Assembly (NCBI GenBank): GCA_947175285.1
Contig: CAMWMM010000369.1
Location: forward strand, 1-5,328
Reading direction: 5' to 3'
From: an uncultured Lachnospiraceae bacterium
GTDB taxonomy: Bacteria; Bacillota_A; Clostridia; Lachnospirales; Lachnospiraceae
DNA length: 5,328 bases
Positions 3,496 through 5,328 of the stretch are shown here, in pieces. The notes under the pieces were generated by a model. It was not told where the DNA came from. It worked only from the letters and a program-made list of their open reading frames with translations, and made no database searches. The position numbers and the translations under genes are program-made. Position 1 is the stretch's first letter. Each line of letters begins with the position of its first letter.

Positions 3496-3574
3496 AAACT
3501 CATATTTACTTTCCGGCATCATGTTCCGTCATGAGCCAACTAATACAATTCTATCTTACAAAGGAGACATTTCT

Positions 3575-4423
3575 ATGAATCAAGACAAATCTGTTACTTC
3601 CCGACACGCTGAGTCCTTCCTTACCGCACAGAACGCCAGCGGTCCACTCCGCTACAATATGACCAATGACTACATGTTCCGCGCTGTCCTGCAGTCCAAC
3701 AACAAAGTTCTACGCGGTCTCATATGTTCTCTGCTCCACCTTTCAGAAGAGGAGCTCATTTCTGTCGAGATTACAAATCCGATTATTCTGGGCGAAGCTA
3801 TCGACAATAAAGAATTCCGGTTGGATATCAATGTCCTGCTTAATGATCATACTCTGATAAACTTAGAAATGCAGGTCGCTAATAAGATTGACTGGCAGAA
3901 CCGCTCCCTCATTTATCTCTGCCGCTCTTTCGACCAACTTGACCATGGACAGGAATATTGCGAGGTGCAGCCGGTGATACATATCGGCTTTCTTGCTTAT
4001 ACCCTTTTTGAAAAATCACCGGAATTTTATGCTACCTACAAACTAATTAATGTAAAAAATCATGAAGTTTATAGTGACAACTTCATCCTGAGTGTGGTAG
4101 ACTTATCTCGGATAGATTTAGCAACTGACGAAGATAAAAAATACCAGATTGATTATTGGGCAAAATTGTTCAAAGCCACAACTTGGGAGGAGATTCATAT
4201 GTTAGCTTCCGAAAACGACTATATCAATGAAGCTTCCAATACGATGCTTCGGCTCAGTGCCGAAGAAGATATCCGGAAACGGTGTCAGGACAGGGAAGAA
4301 TACTATCGGGAAATTCGGACTTATAAGCATATCATTGCCCAAAAAAATGATATTATCGCAAATATGGCTGATGAAATTACATGTTTAAAGTCCCAGCTAG
4401 AATTATATAAAATGAATGGCTAA
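3575..4423 (+). CDS. Rpn-family PD-(D/E)XK nuclease (putative transposase family)
   Basis: This encodes 282 residues from ATG 3575, set by AAAGGAG (3560-3566), 8 nt upstream; the frame is open from TTG 3467, but that start overlaps the promoter. The N-terminus carries the family signature TNDYMFRAVL (residues 30-39), then an alpha/beta region with nuclease motifs: D84 in EFRLDIN and E98/Q100 in NLEMQ. Together these match the D...E-x-Q active site of the PD-(D/E)XK_2/Rpn group. Residues 115-230 are the usual linker and helical part (WAKLFKATTWEEIHMLASEND), and residues 230-280 form a charged coiled coil. Length and completeness are normal. Rpn proteins are DNA endonucleases that stimulate RecA-independent recombination in E. 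coli and have been linked to phage defence; they are often mislabelled transposases. An internal start at codon 209 and a partial duplicate downstream are described separately. Confidence 0.93.
   Translation: MNQDKSVTSRHAESFLTAQNASGPLRYNMTNDYMFRAVLQSNNKVLRGLICSLLHLSEEELISVEITNPIILGEAIDNKEFRLDINVLLNDHTLINLEMQVANKIDWQNRSLIYLCRSFDQLDHGQEYCEVQPVIHIGFLAYTLFEKSPEFYATYKLINVKNHEVYSDNFILSVVDLSRIDLATDEDKKYQIDYWAKLFKATTWEEIHMLASENDYINEASNTMLRLSAEEDIRKRCQDREEYYREIRTYKHIIAQKNDIIANMADEITCLKSQLELYKMNG
4185..4192 (+). promoter_or_regulatory. Internal Shine-Dalgarno inside the nuclease gene
   Basis: GGGAGGAG lies within the codons for Trp-Glu-Glu of the nuclease. Its GGAGG core (4186-4190) is 8 nt from the in-frame ATG at 4199 (codon 209). 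It is at least as good as the ribosome site of the full-length gene. It could arise from the conserved WEE/EIHM peptide alone, so function is inferred. Confidence 0.5.
4189..4264 (+). repeat. Direct repeat copy 1 (inside nuclease gene)
   Basis: This 76-nt stretch recurs at 4475-4550 with one mismatch (T4258 versus C4544); the offset is 286 nt. Weaker similarity extends 6 nt further upstream with two mismatches. The unit contains part of the internal Shine-Dalgarno, the internal ATG and about 21 codons. Confidence 0.97.
4199..4423 (+). CDS. Possible nested short C-terminal Rpn protein (antitoxin-like)
   Basis: This nested frame would give a 74-residue protein identical to residues 209-282 of the nuclease (MLASENDYINEASNTMLRL...), lacking the whole catalytic domain. 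It consists of a short helical segment followed by a charged coiled coil (about residues 22-70), suited to oligomerisation. The start has an excellent ribosome site. Established background: E. coli Rpn genes make a small protein from an internal start in the same frame, which binds the long nuclease and blocks its toxicity. The call here is by analogy; expression is not shown by the sequence. Confidence 0.4.
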   Translation: MLASENDYINEASNTMLRLSAEEDIRKRCQDREEYYREIRTYKHIIAQKNDIIANMADEITCLKSQLELYKMNG

Positions 4424-4430
4424 TCATTGA

Positions 4431-4625
4431 ACCAGATTATTCAAGACAGAATTATTAAGTCTTCAACATTGGAGGGAGATTCATATGTTAGCTTCCGAAA
4501 ACGACTATATCAATGAAGCTTCCAATACGATGCTTCGGCTCAGCGCCGAACAAAATTCTCTCATCCAGCAGCTGTTTGAAGAAAATAAGAGGCTTAGAGC
4601 AAATAACGGCAAAGTTTTGGATTAA
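4431..4625 (+). pseudogene. Remnant of an rpn-like 3' end; contains an intact 46-codon ORF
   Basis: In the frame of ATG 4485, a TGA at 4428-4430 is followed by TRLFKTELLSLQHWREIHM. This parallels the nuclease's LFKATTWEEIHM with about five extra residues. It then reads MLASENDYINEASNTMLRLSAE, identical to the nuclease, before diverging to QNSLIQQLFEENKRLRANNGKVLD and a TAA (4623-4625). The catalytic domain is absent, so as an Rpn gene it is a fragment, probably left by recombination between rpn paralogues with different coiled-coil tails. Positions 4485-4625 nevertheless form a complete ORF of 46 residues with GGAGGGAG (4471-4478) as ribosome site, ending in a leucine-rich, likely coiled-coil segment. 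It starts 62 nt after the nuclease stop on the same strand, so it could be co-transcribed and translated as a small antitoxin-like protein. I favour remnant, but function is not excluded. Confidence 0.7.
4475..4550 (+). repeat. Direct repeat copy 2 (in rpn remnant)
   Basis: This is the second copy of the 76-nt unit at 4189-4264, 75/76 identical. The reading frame is kept and the only difference (AGC for AGT, both serine) is silent. After GCCGAA (4545-4550) the two sequences diverge completely. Confidence 0.97.
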
Positions 4626-4649
4626 CAGCAGGTTGTCCAAGACTTTGCC
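4608..4649 (+). terminator. Stem-loop ending the rpn transcript, weak U-tract
   Basis: The arms at 4608-4622 and 4635-4649 form a 15-bp stem with a 12-nt loop. On the plus-strand RNA all 15 positions pair, with two G-U wobbles; on the minus strand these become A-C mismatches, so plus orientation is favoured. The 5' arm overlaps the last codons of the remnant ORF and the loop opens with its TAA. No T-tract follows directly (the first T run is at about 4670), so it may protect the mRNA 3' end or be a weak terminator. Confidence 0.5.
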
Positions 4650-4682
4650 GATACTCGAATATTAGCATTTTTACAAAAAATT

Positions 4683-5328
4683 TTATAACTTCTTTTTCCG
4701 CTTTCTACTACTATATTCTTCATAACTTATGACCTCATCTGTTTCAGAAAGCTGCACCCTACTACCACTTAAATTATTTTTTTCACGAATCCAATCCACA
4801 TGCTTCTCATCAATTATAGTTTCGTTTAAATTCAAATCTTTTAAATATGCTTCATCTAAATTTGCTCCTCTTAAGTCTACTCTTCTTAAATCTACTTTAA
4901 GTAAATTTGCCCCGCTTAAATTTGCTCCTCTAAAATCTGCACTTCCAGAATATATTTCTATTAAATATGCTTTACTTAAATTTGCTCCGCTTAGATTTCC
5001 ATTACATAAATAGGCTCCTACCAAATTTGCTTTGCTTAAATTTGTTTCACTTAAATCCGCTCCGTTTAAATCTGCATTGCTTAAATCTGCCTCGCTTAAA
5101 TCTGCTCCGCTTAAATTTGCCCCGTTTAATTTTGCACCGCTTAAATTTGCCCCACTTAAATTTGCTCCTCTTAAATCCGCTTCTCTTAAATCTGCCCCAA
5201 CCAGATTTGCTCCAATCAAATTTGCTCCAATCAAATATGCCTTATATAAATATTTTTCGTACAGATTAATTCCTTTTAATTTAAGGGGCAATTCTTTGTT
5301 ATCCCGGATACAAAAAACTATATTATCA
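4683..5328 (-). CDS. Pentapeptide repeat protein, 5' end outside window
   Basis: The minus frame is open from the right edge to TAA at 4685-4683, giving 214 complete visible residues. A TTG at 5291 could be a start, but it has no ribosome site and the upstream frame reads plausibly (DNIVFCIRDNKELPLKLKGI), so I treat the gene as entering from outside the window. About 25 consecutive A(D/N)LxX pentapeptides (GANLIGANLVGADLREADLR...) predict a right-handed quadrilateral beta-helix. One irregular section (KAYLIEIYSGSADFRGANL) may mark a loop or kink. The repeats end in LNLNETIIDEKHVDWIREKNNLSGSRV, then SETDEVISYEEY and a basic tail RKRKKKL. That post-repeat module is, to my recollection, typical of Clostridia members. 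There is no membrane segment. Some family members mimic DNA and protect gyrase; most have no known role, and none is assigned here. It is convergent with the rpn locus. Confidence 0.88.
   Translation of the reverse strand, partial: DNIVFCIRDNKELPLKLKGINLYEKYLYKAYLIGANLIGANLVGADLREADLRGANLSGANLSGAKLNGANLSGADLSEADLSNADLNGADLSETNLSKANLVGAYLCNGNLSGANLSKAYLIEIYSGSADFRGANLSGANLLKVDLRRVDLRGANLDEAYLKDLNLNETIIDEKHVDWIREKNNLSGSRVQLSETDEVISYEEYSSRKRKKKL
4856..5235 (-). repeat. 15-nt-period tandem coding repeat
   Basis: The DNA of the pentapeptide region repeats with a 15-nt period. The plus-strand unit is close to CTTAAATTTGCTCCG, with variation mainly at the two free codon positions of each pentapeptide. 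The regularity at the nucleotide level suggests growth or shrinkage by slippage or unequal recombination. Confidence 0.85.

Follow-up and report, generated by a model that had tools for sequence, protein, structure and literature searches.

The stretch of DNA analysed here, referred to as the window (5,328 nt; contig CAMWMM010000369.1 of assembly GCA_947175285.1, from an uncultured Lachnospiraceae bacterium), carries an intact rpn gene of 282 codons that begins at ATG 3575 behind its own upstream AAGGAG. A second, in-frame candidate start lies in the 3′ part of this gene, and a copy of that start with the beginning of its reading frame is found just beyond the stop codon. The features of the region, with the evidence for each, are as follows.

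3561-3566, + strand: Shine-Dalgarno sequence AAGGAG of the full-length rpn gene (sequence; pairing −8.9 kcal/mol)
3575-4423, + strand: rpn gene, 282 aa, RpnL-like, PD-(D/E)XK nuclease (PF12784, E 2.8e-30; TIGR01784, 61.1 bits)
3824-3874, + strand: likely active-site stretch D84...E98-x-Q100 (conservation in 26 aligned sequences)
4185-4192, + strand: nested Shine-Dalgarno sequence GGGAGGAG within TGG GAG GAG, which encodes Trp204-Glu205-Glu206 (GAG bias at Glu205; −10.2 kcal/mol)
4199-4423, + strand: nested ORF, 74 aa, proposed RpnS-like antitoxin (start-codon conservation; short database proteins)
4319-4420, + strand: length-variable coiled-coil tail (tail gaps in multiples of 7 aa; helix in models)
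4469-4556, + strand: second copy of the Shine-Dalgarno sequence, ATG and head, just past the rpn stop (83/88 nt identical, 94%)
4471-4475, + strand: GGAGG of the second copy, 9 nt ahead of ATG 4485 (−9.8 kcal/mol)
4485-4625, + strand: free-standing 46-aa ORF with the same 22-residue head and a shortened, different tail (alignment of short forms)
4607-4650, + strand: strong hairpin overlapping the second-copy stop (fold of −26.4 kcal/mol, 19 pairs)

The product of the full-length gene matches PF12784 above the cut-off, and its residues 30-245 match TIGR01784, the NCBIfam model of the Rpn family, for which the curated cut-off is 52.1 bits. Among the 26 aligned sequences, E98 and Q100 are invariant and D84 is present in at least 90%; by analogy with the PD-(D/E)XK superfamily at large, these residues probably form the active site. 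The structure model of the full-length protein is poor over residues 101-178, where pLDDT is below 50. The best matches of the gene that have a named source are from Lachnospiraceae. A PADLOC search with four window proteins returned no match for the nuclease, and a single 12.5-bit match of the nested ORF to Avs2 (E 0.0055) was disregarded. Elsewhere, in the genus of genome G002, rpn-like DNA is present in 63 of 77 genomes, often as multiple copies accompanied by many partial matches, which suggests that turnover of rpn is fast in this genus.

The preliminary description of this DNA had placed an in-frame ATG at position 4199, as codon 209, with a GGAGG 8 nt before it and a 74-residue C-terminal product behind it. 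Each of these particulars is borne out: counted from ATG 3575, the codon at 4199-4201 is the 209th, the GGAGG occupies 4186-4190 with a spacer of 8 nt, and the nested ORF of 4199-4423 encodes 74 residues. The predicted pairing of this site with the anti-Shine-Dalgarno sequence is stronger than that of the gene's own start and ranks second among the 490 ATG, GTG and TTG triplets on both strands. Considered alone, the window site is weak evidence: out of 200 synonymous shuffles of the gene, 27% pair equally well, because part of the pairing is dictated by the peptide. The nested ORF is matched by 27 short database proteins, 21 of which have the nested Met as their first residue, but the support that they lend is likewise weak, since they are gene-caller predictions and some lie on short contigs. 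Another in-frame candidate with a good Shine-Dalgarno sequence, GTG 3974 (−9.5 kcal/mol), was rejected because a start codon occurs there in only 11 of 172 genes; being unconserved, this triplet inside rpn is a useful false-positive control.

The same scan was applied to four E. coli K-12 genes as a positive control (rpnA, rpnB, rpnC and rpnE, with rpnD left out). In RpnA it placed M244 first, tied with one other site, and this is the start that has been proved by mutation (Zhong et al., 2023, PMC10327210, cited throughout for its main text). The top codons in the remaining genes were 244 in rpnB and rpnE and 241/242 in rpnC, and internal starts have been reported for all three (PMC10327210).

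For comparison across homologues, rpn genes were drawn from 238 sources, comprising 68 genome_contigs loci, 169 further loci and the window; a regular expression kept 55 of 115 motif hits. The resulting 246 rpn ORFs were reduced to 187 by removal of redundancy at 85%, of which 178 were usable, the other nine being partial ORFs, sequences with no residue at the column, or in one case masked. A nested start is taken here as ATG, GTG or TTG positioned 5 or 6 codons past the Trp. Such a codon is found at the nested position or the next in 165 of the 178 genes, with GTG (L090) or TTG (L092 and L153) replacing ATG in three. The codon for Glu205 is GAG in 141 of the 142 genes that have both Trp-Glu and a nested start, the single exception being L230, which retains the Met as ATG behind GAA GAA. 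By comparison, at all other Glu positions of the 149 Trp-Glu genes GAG accounts for 1475 of 4175 codons (35%), and for 300 of the 728 whose next codon begins with GA. Of 58 conserved two-fold codon columns, Glu205 also shows the strongest bias (GAG in 156 of 162 genes); the fraction of GAG in nine other Glu columns ranges from 0.19 to 0.47. The raw probability attached to this bias is inflated by the non-independence of related genes.

On a FastTree phylogeny of the catalytic part, parsimony counts (93-169 genes per column) give three GAG/GAA changes at Glu205 as opposed to 10-48 in eight other Glu columns. Had shared ancestry alone been at work, the other Glu columns should show similar numbers of changes. 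Pairing strength follows the same pattern: in 164 of 165 cases the nested site pairs more strongly than the mean of its own synonymous shuffles, and the remaining in-frame ATGs have a mean of −2.4 kcal/mol (n = 1003). Joint loss of GAG and the start codon (Fisher test, 141/1 versus 2/5) was rejected as proof, as most of the genes concerned cluster on the tree; independent pairs of such losses number one if supported branches are counted and two on all branches, which leaves the comparison without power. The preliminary description had stated that its proposal of a nested antitoxin start would be refuted by homologues in which the peptide is kept while the Shine-Dalgarno codons or the Met are lost without constraint. 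The homologues behave otherwise, as the near-constancy of GAG and its three changes on the tree make plain.

The 13 genes that have no start codon at the usual place are informative in their own right. When the in-frame starts 8-40 codons past the Trp position are scanned, the best site in these genes has a median pairing of −11.8 kcal/mol and reaches −8 or lower in 11 of 13, versus a median of −1.7 kcal/mol and 9 of 165 in the same stretch of the genes that hold the usual start (Mann-Whitney P 2.7e-5, a value that ignores kinship). The 11 displaced sites lie 13-20 codons past the Trp position, or approximately 8-15 codons beyond the usual start, and several consist of AAGGAGGTGGC or GAGGAGGTGG followed by ATG or TTG. 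Compared with synonymous shuffles of their own genes, four of the 11 fall at or below 5% (L134, L077, L132 and L142) and seven at 7-22%. The in-frame scan detected no nested site in L034 and L059, and a search for free-standing short ORFs beyond ten of the start-lacking genes gave nothing convincing. Because many start-lacking genes cluster on the tree, and start presence changes only twice among the 149 Trp-Glu genes, the displaced starts represent few evolutionary events; the relative age of the two places is left undecided by the tree. The related genes L134, L077, L049 (ORF at 3802), L137, L133 and L142 have their nested start 19-20 codons past the Trp position, and some of them use TTG behind AGGAGGTG.

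A phylum-wide survey found a PF12784 match in 49 of 249 genomes and yielded 27 ORFs from 30 loci, two of which, L261 and L267, duplicate genes already in the previous set. In 24 of these 27 ORFs the C-terminal part contains a strong in-frame site, the scan having found none in L243, L256 and L262, and 24 of 27 exceed their shuffle mean, with many non-significant when compared with their shuffles one by one. Judged from sequence and conservation, the window gene has what characterizes RpnL/RpnS genes, an in-frame start led by a Shine-Dalgarno sequence that would give the C-terminal domain alone, and the nested start is very probably used by ribosomes.

The part shared by the long and short forms ends in a hypervariable C-terminal region, as in RpnL/RpnS. 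In 51 disjoint nearest pairs with core identity of at least 85%, the tails contain 50 internal gaps and the cores none. Multiples of seven residues make up 29 of the 50 gaps (17 of seven and nine of 14), for which the binomial P is 9e-13 against a one-in-seven expectation that is itself a crude chance model; multiples of four account for 10 of 50. Disjoint pairs were used because the count over all pairs (240 of 496 gaps being multiples of seven, with 262 of 298 proteins cuttable) re-uses proteins. The tail gaps begin about 40 or more residues past the nested Met, and the 51 pairs do not show variation by four-residue repeats 8-20 residues past it, the arrangement reported for E. coli and also for C. 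difficile (PMC10327210). Tandem Repeats Finder (TRF) detected no DNA repeat at 4150-4700.

Modelled as a monomer, the 74-aa form is predicted to be a single helix over residues 2-73 (pLDDT 93), and the same C-terminal part appears as three helices in the full-length model. Sequence searches of the PDB returned no significant match, and none of 236 matches in a fold search reached E 0.001. The mode of inhibition may differ from that in E. coli, because the window form is a predicted long helix that varies by seven residues, whereas its E. coli counterpart folds as a compact bundle of three helices (7TH0), dimerises and varies by four (PMC10327210). In E. coli, one extra repeat abolishes inhibition unless both partners carry one (PMC10327210); by analogy, the number of heptads could set the pairing of long and short forms here.

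The second copy, to which the preliminary description does not refer, starts 45 nt past the rpn stop. Its tail (QNSLIQQLFEENKRLRANNGKVLD) resembles those of P0002 and P0003, unlike the window gene's own, and its ORF has no middle, missing approximately 26 or more residues that all 17 other aligned short forms possess. We infer an in-frame deletion at a repeated Ala-Glu. Two histories would fit: a duplicate was deprived of its middle, or the gene, in gaining its present tail, pushed an older one aside. The hairpin at 4607-4650 covers the last codons and stop of this copy and is situated between convergent genes. Further short copies are seen downstream at some loci, again as in RpnL/RpnS genes: N-terminally shortened copies follow full genes at L039 (identical head, two heptads fewer), L112 and L180, a broken one occurs at L160, and others, some of them broken and some situated upstream or far off, are found at L044, L049 and L234. 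Truncated rpn copies comprise nine that are C-terminal-only versus four that are N-terminal-only, with eight edge cases excluded and L039 counted as full, numbers too few to indicate a bias.

This arrangement has a precedent in E. coli rpnE-ypaA, where a free-standing short copy directly follows the rpn stop and the duplication likewise begins just upstream of the Shine-Dalgarno sequence; past the rpnE stop, AAGGAGAGATTAATG is followed by a repeat of the nested head. A downstream short copy, rpnCS, is also described for rpnC (PMC10327210). The downstream copy in the window thus repeats a known E. coli arrangement and differs in having another tail and no middle. One reading, to which we give some weight while considering it unlikely, is that the 4485-4625 copy is a working second antitoxin like RpnES, the product of ypaA. 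Its frame is open behind its own GGAGG and ATG, and the RpnES product has been detected (PMC10327210), though RefSeq lists ypaA as a pseudogene and rpnE as inactive. Set against this are the missing residues, and the finding that downstream copies elsewhere differ in repeat number from their own full gene, a mismatch of the kind that abolished inhibition in E. coli (PMC10327210). More probably, the 46-aa ORF is what remains of a short form, or a spare that no longer matches.

The E. coli Rpn systems RpnA-E and RpnP2 are RpnL/RpnS genes-within-genes (Zhong et al., 2023, PMC10327210), and the window gene shares several of their features. RpnA, RpnC and the window gene all score above the TIGR01784 cut-off, and in each system an in-frame start led by a Shine-Dalgarno sequence precedes a C-terminal domain with a hypervariable terminus. 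The catalytic part is PF12784 in the window and PF04754 in RpnA and RpnC, and the tails of the window family change by seven residues from approximately residue 40 rather than by four at residues 8-20. Within the Rpn family, the window gene stands apart by its repeat unit and by the shape predicted for its short form. A Gram-positive parallel is the C. difficile rpn gene, whose nested start was shown by mutation in tests performed in E. coli; it is known here from the description in PMC10327210 rather than from a comparison of DNA, and four-residue repeats are reported for it there.

The explanation best supported by these observations, and in our view a likely one, is that a single frame encodes two proteins, an RpnL-like nuclease and an RpnS-like intragenic antitoxin. 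The 282-aa protein would act as a PD-(D/E)XK DNA nuclease, and ribosomes would also start at ATG 4199 by means of the internal Shine-Dalgarno sequence, producing the 74-aa C-terminal helix alone. This short helix would pair with the equal helix of the long protein and hold the nuclease off, such that the gene would be a toxin carrying its own antitoxin. Changes in tail length, mostly in seven-residue steps, should then reset the match between short and long forms, and the downstream ORF would be a duplicate starting from the nested ribosome site, with the short form's middle missing. The suggestion in the preliminary description that the nested start may encode an intragenic antitoxin gains support from conservation of the site, and homology with the tested E. 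coli genes points to the antitoxin role. By that analogy the window gene probably works like RpnL/RpnS, and we infer for it actual translation, helix pairing, inhibition and phage defence.

It is also conceivable, if improbable, that internal initiation is real and that the short form serves the nuclease as a structural component or a stimulator. In Cas10d/Cas11d an internal start likewise yields a short product, which is needed as a subunit and is not an inhibitor (PMC10327210). The computed data would fit an inhibitor and a subunit equally, and the predicted long helix would suit co-assembly; arguing for inhibition, E. coli RpnS blocks cleavage, SOS induction and growth inhibition by RpnL (PMC10327210).

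Considerably less probable is a Shine-Dalgarno sequence that is meaningless and merely forced by a conserved Trp-Glu-Glu peptide, the alternative that the preliminary description itself raised. Among the 26 aligned sequences Trp204 and Glu205 never vary and Glu206 hardly does, TGG GA(A/G) GA(A/G) partly spells the motif, and over a quarter of the window gene's shuffles match its pairing. Against this explanation, the adjacent Glu206 is GAG in 72 of 153 genes, with 41 changes on the tree compared with three at Glu205. In addition, the motif survives changes in the peptide: W-K-E genes use AAG GAG, and a divergent group with R-K-E-E, R-K-E or R-E-E has AAGGAG or GGAGG ahead of the Met. Together with the sites found elsewhere where the usual one is missing, these observations lead us to reject the by-product explanation. 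Slowing of ribosomes by internal Shine-Dalgarno-like codons has been suggested, but the idea that the motif acts on the elongating ribosome or the RNA, for example by causing a pause ahead of the C-terminal domain, and that no second protein is made is scarcely credible here, as it leaves unexplained the start codon at near-fixed spacing, the GTG and TTG substitutes, and the recurrence of displaced sites ahead of start codons.

Genes-within-genes of the rpn family have been described before, in E. coli and C. difficile (PMC10327210). What is new here is the comparative evidence, the differently placed starts, the seven-residue tail steps as opposed to the published four-residue ones, and the second copy at 4469-4625 with its different tail. 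Among the matches listed in literature searches on the Rpn nuclease and antitoxin, none was seen to describe rpn genes with displaced nested starts or with heptad steps, and the nested antitoxin was the topic of PMC10327210 alone; the main text of that paper, as distinct from its supplement, does not contain "heptad", "coiled", "seven amino", "Lachnospir", "synonymous" or "Shine". Through this comparison, what had been published for E. coli becomes a trait on which selection can be measured across a large group of gut bacteria, and synonymous sites combined with displaced starts offer a cheap sequence test for other genes-within-genes. A different length code, written in heptads rather than tetrads, could match toxin to antitoxin. 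If the two-protein reading is true, many such genes, whose annotation reads putative transposase, are complete toxin-antitoxin units in themselves. A more tentative proposal, and a rather doubtful one as a whole, is that the nested start in Lachnospiraceae is essential but movable, that heptad number is a lock-and-key code, and that duplications keeping the nested site shed spare or mismatched antitoxins that are a source of new specificities.

Among the other collections searched, viral_contigs yielded two stretches and no relative, a near-match search of phages gave none, and plasmids gave four weak records, none covering 80%. Convergent with rpn, positions 4683-5291 on the minus strand encode a 202-aa pentapeptide-repeat protein (PF00805, E 1.4e-44), which scores below the cut-offs of all listed NCBIfam models, Qnr types included. 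A promoter scan gave nine sites versus 4.2 expected (sd 2.2). Near the start of the minus-strand ORF at 1203-2684 is an inverted repeat (2676-2747) with 31-nt arms that are 87% complementary and separated by 10 nt.
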